A stretch of DNA of 64,000 bases from Plantactinospora soyae (GTDB taxonomy: Bacteria; Actinomycetota; Actinomycetes; Mycobacteriales; Micromonosporaceae), in assembly GCF_014874095.1 (NCBI RefSeq), contig NZ_JADBEB010000001.1, positions 5,766,001 through 5,830,000 of the forward strand, written 5' to 3'. The translations under genes were made by a program, and so were the position numbers. Shown in pieces: positions 38,507 through 45,804 of this stretch; the first letter of the stretch is position 1, and every line of letters starts with the position of its first letter. The notes beneath the pieces were generated by a model, which made no database searches, was not told where the DNA came from, and worked only from the letters and a program-made list of their open reading frames with translations.

Positions 38507-39115
38507 ATGGAACCCGTGCAGGTCGCGATCGTCTACTACAGCGCCACCGGCACCGTGCACACCCTGGCGCGAGCCGCCGCCGACGGCGCGGAGAAGGCCG
38601 GCGCACACGTCCGACTGCGCAAGGTCGCCGAACTGGCCCCGCCGGACGCGATCAACGCCAGGCCGGCCTGGGCCCAGCACGTCCGGGACACCGCCGACGT
38701 CACCGAGGCCAGCCTCGCCGACCTGGCCTGGGCCGACGCGGTGCTGTTCGGCACCCCGACCCGGTTCGGCAACGTGGCCGGCCAGCTCAAGGCGTTCATC
38801 GACACCACCGGTGGCCTCTGGTACCAGGGCAAACTCGCCGACAAGGTGTACTCGGCATTCACCGCGTCCAACACCGCGCACGGCGGACAGGAGTCCACCA
38901 TCCTGGCGCTGGCGAACGTCTTCTACCACTGGGGCGGCATCATCGTGCCCCCCGGCTACACCGATCCGGTCCAGTTCCAGACCGGCAATCCCTACGGCAC
39001 CTCGCACGTGACCGCCGATGGCCCACCCGGAAACGTGGTTCTGGAAGCCGCCCGCTACCAGGCCCGGCGCGTCGTCGACATCGCGGCGGCGCTCAAGGCG
39101 GGCCGCACCGCCTGA
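38507..39115 (+). CDS. wrbA: NAD(P)H:quinone oxidoreductase, WrbA type
   Basis: 202 residues from ATG 38507 with AGGAAGGA upstream. Flavodoxin-like fold: FMN phosphate loop YYSATGTVHTLARAAADGA (about 9-27), FGTPTRFGNVAGQLKAFIDTTGGLW (about 78-102, the WrbA signature) and SNTAHGGQESTILAL, FYHWGGIIVPPGYT near the FMN. The family makes two-electron quinone reductions, limiting redox cycling. It is the divergent neighbour of the ECF41 gene and shares its promoter signature, so it is the probable target, in the role the COE genes play elsewhere. Confidence 0.92.
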   Translation: MEPVQVAIVYYSATGTVHTLARAAADGAEKAGAHVRLRKVAELAPPDAINARPAWAQHVRDTADVTEASLADLAWADAVLFGTPTRFGNVAGQLKAFIDTTGGLWYQGKLADKVYSAFTASNTAHGGQESTILALANVFYHWGGIIVPPGYTDPVQFQTGNPYGTSHVTADGPPGNVVLEAARYQARRVVDIAAALKAGRTA

Positions 39116-39146: not shown

Positions 39147-42100
39147 TCATCCCGGGCGGGCCTCGGCGAGCGTGCGCAGTGCCCGGGCCTCGATCAGCCG
39201 GTACCCGGATCGGCGAGCGAGTTCGACGGCCTTGCCGCCCTGTGCCCTGGCCCCGGCGAGATCGCCGAGGTCCAGTAGGGCCTCGGCCGATCCGCGCAGC
39301 GCGTCCGCCTCGCACCAGCGGAAGCTGGTCGCCCGCGCGATCTCCAATGCCTGGCCGTGATGCTCGCTGGCCTCCGCGGCCAGTCCCAGCCGCAGGCAGA
39401 CGTCGCCGAGCGAGATGAGCGCCCACGCCTCGGTGCCGTGGTCGCCGATCTGACGGGTCAGCTCGACTGCCGACCGGGCATCCGAGCGTGTCTGCGCCGA
39501 CGGGCCGGTCTGGCAGTGCAGCAGCGCGCGGCCGGAGAGCGCGGTCGCCTCGCCGTACGAGTAGCCGAGCTCCCGGTTGGCGACCAGCGCCCGGGTGTAG
39601 AACTCCTCGGCCGTGTCCCGGTGGCCGAGGTCCCGGTGCACGTTGCCGAGGTCGACGAGCAGGACCGCGACGCTGTACCGGATGCCCTCCCGCTCGGCTG
39701 TCTCCAGCGCCGGGCCGAAGTGTCCGAGCGACTGGTCCAGCACGCCGAGCTGCCAGTACGCGAAGCCGAGGTTGGCCAGCGCCATGACCGTTCCGCCGCT
39801 CTGGCCCAGTTGCCGACTCAGCCGCAGCGACTGCAACCCGCAGTCGATCGACGCCCGCGGGTTGCCCAGACGCTGGTGCACCGCACTGAGATTGTTCAGC
39901 ACGGCGGCCCGGCCCTCGTGCCAGCCGTCGGCGACGTTCCGCCGCAGTGCGCTGACGAGATGCGCCCGGGCCTCCTCGTACCGGCCCGTGTTGACGTAGG
40001 CGAGCGAGATGCTCTGGTGCATCGCGGCCTGTGCGCGCTCGTCGCCCTCGGCACGCGCCACGTCCAGCGCCGCCGTCGCCATGTTGGCCCACTCCGTGTG
40101 GTGGCCCCGGTAGTGGAAGAAGGCGCGCAGGGCGTCGGCGATGTGCCAGGCCAGCGGCCGGGGGCCTCGTTCCGCGACCTGGTCGACGGCCGCGGCCAGG
40201 TTCGGCCATTCGGCGTCGAGCCAGGAGAGGGCGCTCGGGTTGTCCGTGAAGGCGATCCCGTCGGGCAGCTCCCTCGGCAGTCGGAGGAACTGTGGAACGA
40301 GCCGCCGGCCCGCCGCGTCGGCCGTGTGCAGGTAGTGGTCGAGTACCAGTCTGCGGGCCTGCTCGCGCTCGGCCGTCGTGTCTTCGGTCAGCGCCCGGTC
40401 GACCGCGTACTGGCGGAGCAGGTCGTGGAACCGAAAGCGTCCGCGTGCGTACTGCTCGACCAGGTGTGCCGCGACCAGCGCCTTCATCAGCCGTTCCGTA
40501 CGAGCCGGCGGCAGCCCGGAGACGACACTTGCCGGCAGTGCGGTGAAGGTCTGTCCCGGCAACAGCCCGAGACGGCGGAACAGGAGTCGGTGCTCGGTCG
40601 GCAATGCCTTGTAGGACAGGGCAAAGGCCTTGGTGATGGCACTCTCTTCGGCACCGTCCACGGTCAGACCCGCCAACGGGTCACCCTCGGCGAGGTCCTG
40701 CACCAGTCCGGCGATCTCGGACTCGGGGTCCGCACCGACGTTGGCCACCGCGATCCGCAGGGCGAGCGGCAGGTGACCGCAGAGTTGGGCCAGCCTCTCG
40801 GCGGCCATCGCCTCGGCGGCGACCTGGTCGACACCGAGTGCGACCTCCAGCAGCCGGCGGGAGTCCGCGGCCGGAAGCACCGACAGCGGCAGCGCCTGTG
40901 CGCCGGTGCGGGCGATCAGGTCACCGAGCCGCTGTCTGCTGGTGACGACGACCGTGCCCACCGGCGGGATCAGCGTGATCACCTGGCCGGTGTCGCGTAC
41001 GTTGTCCAGCACCAACAGGACGTGTTCGTCGGCGAGCATGGAGCGGAACAGGGCTGCCCGGCCGTCCACGTCCGCCGGGATCAACCGGGGGTCGGCACCC
41101 AGGCCGGTCAGCATCTGGATGAGCGCGGCGGCCGGGGTCAGCGGTTCGTGCTCGGCGTCGAAGCCGCGCAGGTCGAGGTAGAGCTGTCCGCCCGGAAACC
41201 GACCCCGGTTGCGGTGGGCCCAGTGGACGGCGAGCGCGGTCTTGCCGACCCCCGCGATGCCGCTGATCACCCAGAGCTTCGTGCCCGACGGCGACGTCAG
41301 CCCGGCATCGAGCCGGTTCAGTTCGCCGGTACGCCCGACGAACCCGAGGGCGTCGTGTGGCAGTTGGGCCGGCCGTACCGGTTCGGGCGACGTTCTCCGC
41401 CGCGACTGCCCGGGAGCATGGTCGAGGGCCGGATCCGCGCGCAGGATCGCGGACTCGAGCCGCCGCAGTTCCGGTACCGGATCGAGGCCGAGTTCGTCGG
41501 TCAGTCTCGTCCGCAGGGTGTGGTACGTCGCGAGCGCGTCGGCGGTACGGCCCTCCCGGTACAGCGCGAGCATGAGCTGGCCCACCAACCGCTGCCGCAG
41601 GGCGTGTTCGGCCACGAGGCCGGTGAGTTCGGCGAGCAGTTGCCGGCTGCGGCCCAACCGCAGTAGGGCGTCCACCCGGCTCTCCAACGCCGCCCACCGG
41701 CCTTCGTGCAGGTGGCCGCAGAGCCGATCCGCGACGTCCCTGGACACCACCTCGCCGAGGGCGTCGCCGCGCCACAGCGCGAGCGCCTGGTCGAACAGTT
41801 CGACGGCGGGCTCGTCGGCGCAGGAGGCCGCCCGGGCGACCAGGTCGGTGAACCGGTGTGCGTCCACCGAGAGCGGGTCCACCCGTAGGACGTATCCGGC
41901 CCCCCGACCGACTATCTCGGGCGCGTCGTCGCCGAACTGCCGGAACGACGTTCGCAGCCGGGATATCAGCGTCTGGATCGAGGCTCGTGCGGACGCCGGC
42001 ACGTCCTGGTCCTCCCAGACGAGGTCGACCAGGCGGTTCAGCGGCACCAGGCGGTTGGCCTCCAGTAGCAGGACCGCCAGTACGAAACGCTGCTTGCGCG

Positions 42101-42173
42101 AACCGAGGCTGACTCGTTCCCTGCCCACCCATGCCTCGACGGGGCCCAGGATGCGGAACTCGATCTCGTTCAC
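39147..42173 (-). CDS. AfsR/SARP-type transcriptional activator with NB-ARC and TPR domains
   Basis: 1008 residues from GTG 42173 (preceded by GGAGAG; the open frame to 43253 reads as a shadow of the next gene). Domains in order: OmpR-type winged helix (EFRILGPVEAWVGRERVSLG, about 3-95), BTAD (about 100-250), a P-loop ATPase of the NB-ARC type with Walker A GIAGVGKTALA (about 310) and LLVLDNV, then about 6-8 TPR repeats from residue ~690 (NTGRYEEARAHLVSALR, LGNVHRDLGHRDTAEEFYTRALVANRELG). Length matches AfsR. SARPs activate by binding direct repeats; matching repeats lie upstream of the two divergent genes. Confidence 0.93.
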   Translation of the reverse strand: MNEIEFRILGPVEAWVGRERVSLGSRKQRFVLAVLLLEANRLVPLNRLVDLVWEDQDVPASARASIQTLISRLRTSFRQFGDDAPEIVGRGAGYVLRVDPLSVDAHRFTDLVARAASCADEPAVELFDQALALWRGDALGEVVSRDVADRLCGHLHEGRWAALESRVDALLRLGRSRQLLAELTGLVAEHALRQRLVGQLMLALYREGRTADALATYHTLRTRLTDELGLDPVPELRRLESAILRADPALDHAPGQSRRRTSPEPVRPAQLPHDALGFVGRTGELNRLDAGLTSPSGTKLWVISGIAGVGKTALAVHWAHRNRGRFPGGQLYLDLRGFDAEHEPLTPAAALIQMLTGLGADPRLIPADVDGRAALFRSMLADEHVLLVLDNVRDTGQVITLIPPVGTVVVTSRQRLGDLIARTGAQALPLSVLPAADSRRLLEVALGVDQVAAEAMAAERLAQLCGHLPLALRIAVANVGADPESEIAGLVQDLAEGDPLAGLTVDGAEESAITKAFALSYKALPTEHRLLFRRLGLLPGQTFTALPASVVSGLPPARTERLMKALVAAHLVEQYARGRFRFHDLLRQYAVDRALTEDTTAEREQARRLVLDHYLHTADAAGRRLVPQFLRLPRELPDGIAFTDNPSALSWLDAEWPNLAAAVDQVAERGPRPLAWHIADALRAFFHYRGHHTEWANMATAALDVARAEGDERAQAAMHQSISLAYVNTGRYEEARAHLVSALRRNVADGWHEGRAAVLNNLSAVHQRLGNPRASIDCGLQSLRLSRQLGQSGGTVMALANLGFAYWQLGVLDQSLGHFGPALETAEREGIRYSVAVLLVDLGNVHRDLGHRDTAEEFYTRALVANRELGYSYGEATALSGRALLHCQTGPSAQTRSDARSAVELTRQIGDHGTEAWALISLGDVCLRLGLAAEASEHHGQALEIARATSFRWCEADALRGSAEALLDLGDLAGARAQGGKAVELARRSGYRLIEARALRTLAEARPG

Positions 42174-42307: not shown

Positions 42308-42338
42308 TTGCAAGGGCCTTGCAAGCGCGGTACGCAAG
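42308..42338 (+). promoter_or_regulatory. Triple GCAAG repeat (site A), predicted SARP box
   Basis: GCAAG at 42310-42314, 42321-42325 and 42334-42338, i.e. spacings of 11 and 13 bases. The first two form a palindrome TTGCAAGG-G-CCTTGCAA (42308-42324). It lies 54 bases before the secreted-protein start. SARPs bind heptamer repeats spaced by about one helix turn. Confidence 0.65.
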
Positions 42339-42392
42339 GGTACTGCGCCATCCGTACCCGTCGCCCGAACATCCATCGGTAGGAGTCAAAAC

Positions 42393-43421
42393 ATGCGAAG
42401 AGCCTTCAGTGTGGTCGTGGCCATGCTGTTCGTCGTCACGTCCGCGAGCGTCGCGCACGCCGACGAGGGGTCGGTGACCAGGGTGACGCTGACGAGTGCG
42501 AACAGCTTCCAGTCGAGGGTCGAGGAGCGCCTGTTGAGCAGGACCGTCACCCTCGCCGCCGGGGAGTCCCGGCACGTGCGGGGACGCCTCCAGGCGACCA
42601 GCAGCGTGCCGCAGATCGTGTCGATGAACAACACGCTCAAGTGCGTCAACTCGGCCGGTGCCGTGGTCGGCACCACCTCGACGTCGTCGCGCAACCACGA
42701 AGGCTCGGACACCACCTACTACGCCAGGCCCGGGCATCTGCCGATCGACGCCGACCTCCTGTTCACCGCGCCCTCGGCGGGCACCTACACCTGTGGCCTG
42801 TACGGGTACACGGCCTCCACCTCGCTCAGCGGTTACCACCTGACCGCCGTCGCCACCGACACCTGGCTCGAGGTCAGCGACACCAACCAGGTGGGCGCGC
42901 GTTGGTGGCAGAACCCGGCCTGTAGCAGCACCGGTACCTCGAGCACCTGTACCTACGTCGGCGCCGGTACGTCCACGGCCTGGGTGTTCTACGACGACGG
43001 TACGCCGGTCCACAAGTGGAACGCCGCCGCCAACGCCAGCTCCGTGCAGGCTCTGGCCACACTGGAGCTGACGACGTGTTACACCGGTACCGCGTCGTGT
43101 AAGAGCAGCATCGACGCGTACGAGCAGCCGCGCGGTACGAACGCGGTGGTCGACGTACGTTTCGAGTTCATCCAGCTGGACCCGACCGCACACACCTGTC
43201 GGACGACGAGCACCGCGACCTCCCGGAAGACGATCCGCGACGACGCGCACCACTACGTCGCGAACTTCGCCCTCTCAGGTATTCCGATCGATCCGACCTG
43301 TGGGACCCGGACCTTTCTCATGCGGATCTTCGTCAAGCACGTCTCCGGCAACCCGATCAAAATCGACGGGGAGCAGAGCACGACCTCGTTGACGAACGGC
43401 ATCGCGATGAACATCTTCTGA
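42393..43421 (+). CDS. Secreted protein of unknown function, 342 residues
   Basis: ATG 42393 with TAGGAG upstream. Signal peptide about 1-23 (ends AHA). Mature protein is beta-rich, low in charge, Thr/Ser-rich, with ten or more Cys in spaced pairs (LKCVNSAG, YTCGLYG, NPACSSTG, STCTYVG, TTCYTG, ASCKSS, HTCRTT, PTCGTR), consistent with disulfides outside the cell. I do not recognise a family; it has no catalytic motif, repeat or sortase signal. It lies between the SARP gene and the trypsin-like protease gene and shares its upstream GCAAG repeats with that protease gene, so the two are probably co-induced. It could be a protease inhibitor, toxin or envelope protein; none is supported. Confidence 0.75.
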   Translation: MRRAFSVVVAMLFVVTSASVAHADEGSVTRVTLTSANSFQSRVEERLLSRTVTLAAGESRHVRGRLQATSSVPQIVSMNNTLKCVNSAGAVVGTTSTSSRNHEGSDTTYYARPGHLPIDADLLFTAPSAGTYTCGLYGYTASTSLSGYHLTAVATDTWLEVSDTNQVGARWWQNPACSSTGTSSTCTYVGAGTSTAWVFYDDGTPVHKWNAAANASSVQALATLELTTCYTGTASCKSSIDAYEQPRGTNAVVDVRFEFIQLDPTAHTCRTTSTATSRKTIRDDAHHYVANFALSGIPIDPTCGTRTFLMRIFVKHVSGNPIKIDGEQSTTSLTNGIAMNIF

Positions 43422-43469
43422 CCACCGCTCGTTCCCGCCGCGCGAGGACGAGTCTGAGGAGGCGGGAAA

Positions 43470-43504
43470 GGGTCCGGGCCCCCTCGATCGAGGGGCCCGG
43501 ACCC
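43470..43504. terminator. Strong hairpin terminator
   Basis: Almost perfect 15-bp arms, GGGTCCGGGCCCC against GGGGCCCGGACCC, through a CTCGATCGA-type centre, about 48 bases after the secreted-protein stop. Confidence 0.8.
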
Positions 43505-43592
43505 CTGGTCGGGGCGGCTGACGGCCCCGCCGTGATGTTCGCCTCGCCCGGTCGGCCGGAGTGGTCGCCGCGAGCCGGCGGCTGAGCGGGCT

Positions 43593-43621
43593 GCAAGGCT
43601 TGTGCAAGCGGGTCACGCGAG
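43593..43621 (+). promoter_or_regulatory. Triple GCAAG repeat (site B), predicted SARP box
   Basis: GCAAG at 43593-43597 and 43604-43608, then GCGAG at 43617-43621: spacings 11 and 13, identical to site A. The surrounding 40 bases are also similar (GCAAGG....GCAAGCG....CGC(A/G)AGGGT). Lies ~95 bases before the protease start. Confidence 0.65.
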
Positions 43622-43715
43622 GGTGGCCGCGTCCACCCACCACATCGGATCTGCCGAAGGCGTATCCGTGGGTGGGAAACGGTCCGACCATCCGAACGTG
43701 TCAACAGGAGGTTCC

Positions 43716-44945
43716 GTGCGTAGACGCATGGTGTTCGTGGGCTGCCTACTCGTCGCGGTCGCGGGCACGACGTCAGCCGCCCAGGCGGACGTGTCGACAG
43801 CGAAAGCGGCCGAACAATGGTCTACCGCCGGCTTCGCCGCGGACGTCGACACTGCGGCGATGACCCGGCAGTACCACCGTCTCAGGGCCATGGCGGCCGC
43901 CGACCCCGAGGGTGCCGGGAGCACCTACTTCGACGAGGCCACCGGCCAGCTCGTCGTCAGGTACGTGAAGAACGAGGACGGCGCCCGGTGGCAGGCGAGG
44001 GGGAGAGGACTGGCCGCCCAGGCCGGTGACGTGCCGGTCCGGTACGAGGCGACCGACGTCTCGTTGCGGCGTCTGGAGGAGGCAACCAAGAGCCTGGACG
44101 ACTCCCGCGGCTGGGCGGGTTCACTGGCCGGCCTGGTGCATCAGGTACGCCTCGACGAGCTCGCCGATGAGATTGTCATCGAGGCCGCCGGCGAGGCGGA
44201 GAAGCTTGCCGCGGCGGCGGAGCGGGCCACCGGACTTCCACCCCGGGTCACCGTCTCCAAGGCCGGGCCGGTCCAGCAGAGCCGCCGGTCGGACACGGCA
44301 CCGTTCTACGGCGGCCTGGCGCTCTGGCGGCGCGTTGTCGGGAACCCGCTCACGGAAAACGCGGCCTGCACGACCGGCTTCCGGATGACGCGCGGCGGGA
44401 CGAACAGCAACTGGGTGACCATCGCGGGGCACTGCGGTACGAACGGAGACCAGTACTGGCACCCGGGCGGTTGGGCGGTCCGGATCAGTTCGGACTACGA
44501 GAGCCTGGGCACGGACGTCGCGATGCTGGCGCCACTCGGCGACGCCTACTTCAGCCGTAACTCGTGGTTCGGCGGAAGAAACGCCGCGACCGCGCACCCG
44601 GTCAGTGGAAAGGACACCGACTGGCCCGCGGTCGGTTCGGCGCTCTACATCTCCGGGTCGAACGGCGGGCTGGTCTACGGCCGGGTGACGTCGGACCGCG
44701 GCACCTGCGGCGGCGAACGCATGGTCGTCGTCGACACCACCAACGGGCACACCAACGACGGCGCCACCCTGGGCGGCGACTCCGGAGCGCCGGTCACCCG
44801 GTGGAACACCGCCACCTCGGCCACCGACGATCTCGCGGCGGTGGGCAGCCATTCCTGCGGCAACGCCGTCGACACCTCGTGGTTCGTGCCGATCCACCGG
44901 GTGGAGTCGGCCACCGACGCCGTCGTGGTGATCGGCGGCAACTGA
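43716..44945 (+). CDS. Secreted trypsin-like serine protease (S1, streptogrisin-like)
   Basis: 409 residues from GTG 43716 with AGGAGGT upstream. Signal peptide about 1-26 (LLVAVAGTTSAAQA), a propeptide of about 150 residues, then a chymotrypsin fold with His239 (TIAGHCGTN), Asp267 (LGTDVAML) and Ser356 (GGDSGAPV). The catalytic domain Cys pattern (AGHC, GTCGG, HSCG) resembles streptogrisin / S1E enzymes. Likely autocatalytic maturation outside the cell. The GCAAG repeat box upstream matches that of the preceding gene, despite the terminator in between, indicating two separate promoters under one regulator. Confidence 0.92.
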   Translation: MRRRMVFVGCLLVAVAGTTSAAQADVSTAKAAEQWSTAGFAADVDTAAMTRQYHRLRAMAAADPEGAGSTYFDEATGQLVVRYVKNEDGARWQARGRGLAAQAGDVPVRYEATDVSLRRLEEATKSLDDSRGWAGSLAGLVHQVRLDELADEIVIEAAGEAEKLAAAAERATGLPPRVTVSKAGPVQQSRRSDTAPFYGGLALWRRVVGNPLTENAACTTGFRMTRGGTNSNWVTIAGHCGTNGDQYWHPGGWAVRISSDYESLGTDVAMLAPLGDAYFSRNSWFGGRNAATAHPVSGKDTDWPAVGSALYISGSNGGLVYGRVTSDRGTCGGERMVVVDTTNGHTNDGATLGGDSGAPVTRWNTATSATDDLAAVGSHSCGNAVDTSWFVPIHRVESATDAVVVIGGN

Positions 44946-45150: not shown

Positions 45151-45804
45151 ATGAGTGGACACGGACACCAGCTCACCGAGGACGAAGCGGCCGCGATGTT
45201 CGAGCCGCCGAGCTGGGACGAGCGGTACTCCGGGTCGGAAACGATCTGGAGCGGGAAACCCAACGCGCAGCTCGTCGCGGAGGTGGCCACACTGACGCCG
45301 GGCACCGCGCTCGACGTCGGCTGCGGTGAGGGCGGCGACGTGATCTGGCTGGCCGGCCAGGGTTGGACGGCCACCGGTGCCGACTTCTCCGCCAACGGCC
45401 TGGCGCGGGCCGCCCGGCACGCCGAGCAGGCCGGAGTCGGCGACCGCACGCACTGGTGGCAGGTCGACGCACGGACCTTCGCGGCGGACGGGCGCTCCTA
45501 CGACCTGGTCACCAGCCACTTCCTGCACGCGCCGGACGGTCAGATGGTGGAGGTGACCCGCCGACTGGCCGAGGCCGTCGCCCCCGGCGGGCACCTGCTC
45601 GTCGTCGGCCACGCCCCGTCCGAGGTGTTCGCCCAGCTGACCGCGAGCCAGCGCAGGGCGATGTTCGTCGCCGAGGAACTGCTGCCCGGCCTGCCGGACG
45701 ACTTCGAGGTCCTGGTGGTCGAGCAGCGGCCCAGGACGATGACCCGCGACGGGGTGACGGTCGACGTGCACGACTCCACGCTGCTCGCTCGCCGTACGTC
45801 GTAG
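45151..45804 (+). CDS. Class I SAM-dependent methyltransferase
   Basis: 217 residues from ATG 45151 (AAGGGA upstream). Motif I ALDVGCGEGGDVIWLA (about 52-67), then ATGADFS, and APGGHLLVVGHAPSEV after motif III. Related in outline to the methyltransferase at 35829 (ERYSGSETIWSGKPN at the front and the VGH post-motif) but without the His-rich insert. A role in detoxification or small-molecule methylation is possible, as with TehB-like proteins. The 205-base upstream gap has an A-rich patch AAAGTAGCAAGAAAGG (45028-45043) that may hold the promoter. Confidence 0.87.
   Translation: MSGHGHQLTEDEAAAMFEPPSWDERYSGSETIWSGKPNAQLVAEVATLTPGTALDVGCGEGGDVIWLAGQGWTATGADFSANGLARAARHAEQAGVGDRTHWWQVDARTFAADGRSYDLVTSHFLHAPDGQMVEVTRRLAEAVAPGGHLLVVGHAPSEVFAQLTASQRRAMFVAEELLPGLPDDFEVLVVEQRPRTMTRDGVTVDVHDSTLLARRTS

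Follow-up and report, generated by a model that had tools for sequence, protein, structure and literature searches.

Known SARPs have been studied mostly as antibiotic switches, and a locus of Plantactinospora soyae raises the question of whether such a regulator may control exported proteins. Within the window, the whole 64-kb stretch of DNA analysed here, two adjacent plus-strand genes for a secreted protein and a putative trypsin-like protease are each preceded by similar GCAAG repeats. The initial annotation read these as a three-part box, GCAAG-6-GCAAG-8-GC(A/G)AG, with the same spacings before both genes, and assigned it to an adjacent SARP. The exact pattern GCAAGN6GCAAGN8GCRAG is present on the plus strand at 42310-42338 and 43593-43621, and it occurred in 0 of 100 dinucleotide shuffles. 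A search of the whole 9,715,930-base genome returned these two sites only, with no match for the reversed pattern; in six genus mates the exact pattern was absent, and the reversed control gave one match in each of three of them.

The SARP, its putative operators and their candidate targets

The features considered here, with the basis of each assignment in brackets, are the following.

39147..42173, minus strand: AfsR-like large SARP of 1008 aa with a GTG start, presumed regulator (Pfam, NCBIfam, phmmer)
42308..42314, plus strand: putative operator A, repeat 1, TTGCAAG (pattern search; kept in orthologues)
42319..42325, plus strand: putative operator A, second TTGCAAG, 11 bp downstream of the first (all 14 aligned sites have TGCAAGC here)
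42336..42341, plus strand: proposed -10 hexamer AAGGGT of site A, overlapping the third GCAAG of the initial annotation
42393..43421, plus strand: secreted protein of no known family, 342 aa, candidate target A (signal peptide by eye; orthologues)
43470..43504 (arms 43470-43482 and 43492-43504), no strand assigned: 13-bp perfect inverted repeat between both genes, probable terminator (sequence)
43591..43597, plus strand: putative operator B, repeat 1, CTGCAAG (pattern search, alignment, orthologues)
43602..43608, plus strand: putative operator B, repeat 2, GTGCAAG (pattern search, alignment, orthologues)
43619..43624, plus strand: proposed -10 hexamer GAGGGT of site B, overlapping the third GCGAG of the initial annotation
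43716..44945, plus strand: secreted trypsin-like (S1-type) serine protease, 409 aa, candidate target B (alignment, motifs)

Regarding the regulator, the gene divergent next to site A encodes a protein of 1008 aa on the minus strand (39150-42173) with BTAD, Trans_reg_C and TPR domains, in agreement with the AfsR-like SARP first described there. Matches above the Pfam cut-offs were obtained for Trans_reg_C (1.3e-6), BTAD (6e-39) and TPR_12 (4.8e-30), and NB-ARC stayed under its cut-off (17.9 of 23.5 bits). Residues 4-745, GIAGVGKT included, align with AfsR in phmmer (E 1.8e-96 against 8k60), and residues T88, S91, R92 and R94 of AfsR are identical in the alignment, with residues counted by hand. 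By its domain order (winged helix, BTAD, NOD with a P-loop, TPR) and its length of about 1000 aa, the protein is a large SARP. The NCBIfam AfsR equivalog model scored 452 bits, under its cut-off of 1430, and on these scores the protein is AfsR-like and not an AfsR orthologue.

The term "secreted" is used throughout for N-termini judged by eye. The 342-aa protein has no Pfam match and no solved-structure relative. In the 409-aa protein, H239, D267 and S356 are invariant in nine aligned sequences and lie in the motifs AGHC, GTD and GGDSG, which we take to be those of an S1-type, trypsin-like triad. These motifs agree with the earlier trypsin-like label. No family profile or solved relative matched by sequence in Pfam, NCBIfam or PDB, and the protein is therefore treated as a putative protease with a presumed S1-type fold. 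The strong terminator described between the two genes corresponds to the 13-bp perfect inverted repeat at 43470-43504, which a terminator scan requiring a T run did not report. Beyond the two genes, the window contains a methyltransferase gene at 45151-45801 (Pfam Methyltransf_25) and, at 38509-39112, a gene that is flavodoxin/WrbA-like by eye with no Pfam match at the threshold used. No GCAAG pair was found upstream of either in a window-wide search allowing one mismatch.

Two repeats and a hexamer at a constant distance

Alignment of 14 homologous sites yielded the consensus TGCA(A/T)G-NNTTT-TGCAAGCGCG-NN-ACGNGACGGT. The second TGCAAGC is invariant in this alignment, as are an A at column 30 and a T at column 34, and beyond the core the sites have CGCG..ACGNGACGGT in common. 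Only the two window sites have the third GCRAG (G at column 31 is found in 2 of 14), and the consensus at that position is CGNGACGGT. The three-box operator with 11 + 13 spacing was therefore ruled out. The alignment suggests instead a putative operator in which TGCAAG occurs twice as a direct repeat with 11-bp spacing. The third element is, in these aligned sites, a constant-distance feature overlapping a -10-like hexamer, nAnnnT, and is not a repeat. Accordingly, two repeats 11 bp apart survive from the initial three-part box, and the third is reassigned to the promoter. The protease sites of L051 and L131 (L and G numbers label loci and genomes of the comparison set), which are not part of the 14-site alignment, also carry nAnnnT in register.

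Offsets were counted from the T of the last repeat as 0, and the start of nAnnnT was scored at 16. The hexamer stands at this offset in 9 of 9 window-class sites. In the three-repeat class (7 sites), all six distinct tails have it, as do all 12 distinct tails from 14 loci of a search for relatives, one of which repeats a window-class tail. At other offsets in these three groups, it occurs at a mean of 0.6-2.7%. A Fisher p of 2.6e-5 was computed alongside these means with relatedness ignored; the sites are related by descent, and the counts are therefore not independent trials. In the orthologue comparison, nAnnnT is in register at all 15 places that have the repeat pair. A group of 19 further SARP-adjacent sites has 18 distinct tails; six of these tails have the hexamer at offset 16, and four of the six adjoin hemerythrin-like genes; sites of the SARP clade represented by L173 have it in 0 of 12. 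It is found in 7 of 43 sites classed as not SARP-adjacent, which were drawn from the 54 exact sites that have no divergent SARP start as close as 250 bp; the other 11 comprise seven placed in other groups, three overlapping copies in L122 and L123, and L227. A scan for the sigma-70 consensus found nothing. A TACTGC/TATTTA hexamer 16 nt after TTGCAA was also considered as the -10 and dropped because, unlike nAnnnT at offset 16 in the window class, it is not kept (e.g., TGGCCG at several sites). From the proposed -10 hexamers, transcription is predicted to start at about 42348 (site A) and 43631 (site B).

Association of the repeats with SARPs and alternative explanations

In a set of 300 genomes of the family, the 342-aa protein has 15 near-full-length copies, its own included, and any match in 23 genomes. 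The protease has 10 matches at E <= 1e-40, including its own and one fragment, and the window SARP has 12 at E <= 1e-250, including its own. Box presence was scored with one relaxed pattern in the 400 bases upstream, and the secreted-gene comparison covered 16 loci, namely the 15 plus L131. The repeat pair precedes the secreted gene at all six loci with an adjoining window-type SARP or a remnant of one, and at none of the ten others. Five of the six have a window-type SARP; the sixth, G146 (L054), retains only a SARP-like scrap, with 15 aa matching at E 0.019 and a stretch of 170 nt at 73% to its counterpart in G238. The ten loci without a box include L057 and L058, where the SARP lies beside the protease, and L056, with a distant 39% SARP nearby. 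Before the protease gene, the pair was found at 9 of 9 loci with an adjoining window-type SARP or its remnant and at 0 of 3 others (L055; L065, with a 36% SARP nearby; L099). Three of the nine box-bearing protease copies look broken (L054, L067 and L131), and G146 keeps boxes at both genes despite its SARP scrap and broken protease. These comparisons support the view that, across orthologues, box presence tracks a neighbouring window-type SARP.

A separate observation concerns G170 (L057:7086 onwards), in which the SARP is shortened to about 307 aa and still lies beside the box and the protease; it is a small-SARP-like form derived from the large one.

The exact form TGCAAG-N5-TGCAAG has 82 sites in the 300 family genomes and its reverse has 96, so an argument from over-representation was dropped; location, not number, is unusual. 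The box lies 18-200 bp from a divergent SARP start and reads away from the SARP at 28 of the 82 sites, nine of them in the window clade and 19 beside other SARPs. A further 53 sites have no SARP start within 250 bp. The remaining site, L227 (at 3017), lies 117 bp before a co-directional SARP match (E 7e-11), the only such orientation among the 82, and is possibly an operator for the SARP gene itself. Most of the 54 sites without a divergent SARP start are probably due to chance. As a control for SARP proximity, 31 of the 96 reversed-pattern sites (in 30 loci) were examined, and none had a SARP match in its 3-kb locus.

On a SARP tree of 64 rows, the box label requires 8 changes, versus 21.5 with shuffled labels; the initial 76 rows had been reduced to 73 by dropping three identical or X-rich rows, and then to 64 by leaving out nine Pseudonocardiaceae near-copies. 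The window SARP falls in a supported clade of 19 rows, of which 16 have the box, two have it on the 3' side and one is without it. Of 13 Pseudonocardiaceae loci, 12 have three phased copies, 11 of them from Amycolatopsis and one from the two Saccharothrix loci, with SARPs 61-66% identical; Saccharothrix coeruleofusca has the SARP (62% identity) and no box. In the same protein search, the repeat pair was absent from 18 SARP rows with identities of at most about 41%, which represent 17 of the 23 loci L145-L167.

Several further SARP and box arrangements were noted. In Amycolatopsis, about 31 bp separate the box from the SARP start, no gene follows closely downstream, and no secreted gene lies directly behind the box. 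At L132-L137, L139 and L141-L144, a conserved leader of about 400 nt without a clear gene comes after the three-copy box; behind it are a GntR-like gene and, as read in L132 and L144, ABC-transporter genes, all named by eye. Rfam gave no match at the gathering cut-off for L132, L133, L140 and L092. In L100, L102, L106 and L113 (near 1501-1517), a TGCAAG pair with an in-register -10 stands between a divergent SARP and a gene that we presume to be hemerythrin-like from an HHHH motif seen by eye; this is an apparent second pairing of SARP and target, in four genomes. In another SARP clade, some 110-120 bp lie between the pair and the start of the SARP gene, at L173:5019 (own genome, 3,211,502) and 11 other loci (L101, L105, L168, L179, L214, L215, L217, L220, L229, L230 and L233), and the downstream gene resembles MSTHEWSRVPIGIDASRW where read (L101, L105, L168, L173 and L179). 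Finally, five genomes of one genus have two to four TGCAAG copies before genes that appear by eye to encode ABC-transporter ATPases (L119 and L121-L124), with no SARP match in the 3-kb locus; three of these have nAnnnT in register.

Recurrence of the box before other secreted genes provides further candidate targets. A third site in the own genome, at 3,733,583 (L003:6584), has no mismatch to the repeats plus -10 and precedes a gene for a small secreted protein. Directly abutting it, at L003:6454-6616, is a SARP fragment (30 aa, 83% identity), a relic of a duplicated SARP locus. In G224, genes for two small secreted proteins follow the remote site L169, and one product is similar to that of L003 (28% over 134 aa, pairwise E 2e-10, signal peptide included); the genes divergent from the SARP of G224 include one for an HExxH protein. 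The divergent gene of G208 and G085 encodes a secreted protein of about 980 aa with HExxH, and G122 has the same N-terminus; the "protease" label of HExxH proteins is by motif only. Pfam matched DUF5005 weakly on the 980-aa protein (30.6 bits against a cut-off of 29.6) and nothing on the small HExxH protein of G224. In G254, the divergent region lacks a box, and a three-copy site 3' of the SARP (L255) precedes a secreted protein. The composite two-repeat form, with at most one mismatch, was found at 16 places in 10 SARP-bearing genomes (reversed control, 6), and the three-repeat form at 11 places in 8 of 9 genomes (control, 0). The genes downstream of the composite matches G053:75879, G224:6636842 and G000:6221633 could not be called secreted.

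Taken as sequence evidence, orthologue tracking, clustering by SARP clade on the tree and recurrence before other secreted genes argue that the box is a SARP operator common to several genes for secreted proteins. The main idea of the initial annotation is thus largely right, and the two boxes are probably operators of the adjacent AfsR-type SARP.

The strongest of the other explanations, which we nevertheless consider unlikely, is that another SARP of the genome binds the boxes, or that several sharing the TGCAAG core do so, and that the adjacent gene is not the main regulator. The same core does stand beside the L173 clade, with its own-genome member at 3,211,502, and beside SARPs linked to hemerythrin-like genes, but among orthologues the occurrence of the box before the secreted and protease genes goes with the window-clade SARP, and the aligned sites are alike beyond the core (CGCG..ACGNGACGGT). 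Much less probable is autoregulation, in which the box would be a promoter element of the SARP gene and its position near the other genes a coincidence. No intact SARP start adjoins site B, the third genomic site or L169 of G224, the SARP is not divergent in G184 and G254 and yet the box precedes the secreted gene, and the -10-like hexamer points to the target gene; these facts speak against such a role, although 28 of 82 boxes are next to a divergent SARP start, one precedes a co-directional SARP match, and the Amycolatopsis box near the SARP start has no close gene on its other side. That the repeats belong to the promoter of an alternative sigma factor, with no activator involved, would agree with the fixed distance between repeat and hexamer, but the phased copies vary in number between two and three and follow SARP clades, which makes this reading very improbable. 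Chance or recent duplication, leaving functionless copies of one ancestral upstream region, is scarcely credible: the SARP relic beside the third site fits it, but two other genera (G053; G184, G238, G146 and L131) have retained each of the two sites in its own place, repeats and -10 included.

Proposed mechanism and comparison with known SARP systems

For the adjacent SARP as regulator, the following mechanism can be proposed. Two SARP protomers would sit side by side on the two TGCAAG repeats with their 11-bp spacing. The bound SARP would place RNA polymerase on the weak -10 (nAnnnT), whose first base is 16 nt beyond the T of the downstream repeat, and would therefore compensate for a poor -35. 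The NOD and TPR parts presumably keep the SARP inactive until a signal, together with ATP, relieves this block, in line with the model proposed for AfsR. The proteins produced would be the 342-aa secreted protein, the serine protease and the third, small secreted protein of the own genome. The data themselves give sequence, conservation, co-occurrence and spacing; binding, activation and signal are extrapolated from AfsR and PimR, and the -10 assignment is likewise our inference. The core may also serve further SARPs of this genome (L173), and the pairing of this SARP with its box is therefore one that we infer.

A wider reading is conceivable, though we consider it doubtful. A STAND-type SARP clade of Micromonosporaceae and Pseudonocardiaceae might have left antibiotic control to become a dedicated sensor-activator of exported proteins, with one TGCAAG code before differing secreted proteins and putative proteases (the serine protease in the window clade, the HExxH protein in G224 and the HExxH protein of about 980 aa in G208 and G085, with a like N-terminus in G122), and peptide products of these proteases might feed back as the TPR ligand. 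If the main reading of the boxes as SARP operators is true, one SARP clade would be wired to exported proteins and putative proteases, and the layout of operator and promoter would make targets of many uncharacterised large SARPs predictable from sequence.

A SARP controlling extracellular proteolysis had been called unusual at the outset, and this assessment stands: no report of a SARP controlling secreted proteases was found in the literature searched, which lay outside most subscription journals, and by term count the main text of a 2024 SARP review has no word beginning with "protease" (PMC10972967).

In the accessible part of one study, SARP promoters are described with 11-bp repeats, the 3' repeat lying 8 bp upstream of the -10 (PMC4393881). 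With the proposed -10, the window layout would fit this arrangement exactly if the repeat unit is taken as TGCAAGCG, and the 11-bp repeats and the 8-bp distance would then be as in OtcR-type promoters; these differ in their cluster-situated SARP, CGGTCGAAG-like repeat and antibiotic genes (PMC4393881). In the available text on PimR, the operator consists of three footprinted CGGCAAG heptamers with 4-bp spacers, and SanG and PolR have the same heptamer (PMC5930380, PMC3367932). The likeness to the present sites lies in direct repeats with a GCAAG core, 4-bp spacers and two or three copies, and, for PimR, in an operator located in the intergenic region with the regulator's gene. The heptamer here is (T/C/G)TGCAAG, whereas it is CGGCAAG in those systems; the regulator is of the NOD-TPR (AfsR-like) type, in contrast to the LAL-type PimR, SanG and PolR; the present repeats are close to the proposed -10, whereas operator and -35 are free of overlap in the PimR case; and the candidate targets are secreted proteins instead of an antibiotic cluster. 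The candidate regulator most resembles AfsR in having the same domain order, 11-bp repeats just upstream of a weak -10 and the base-contact residues, T88 and R92 according to the accessible text (PMC10936776). At afsS, which has CACTGT as its -10, the two repeats extend from -40 to -19, and R92 makes contact with T-38 and T-27 (PMC10936776). Assuming that this -10 occupies -12 to -7, T-27 is 15 nt from it, compared with 16 nt here. The repeat sequence differs, and the target studied there is afsS (PMC10936776). The GCAAG core is thus already known from SARP operators, and the unusual part of the present system is its proposed target class, secreted proteins that include putative proteases.
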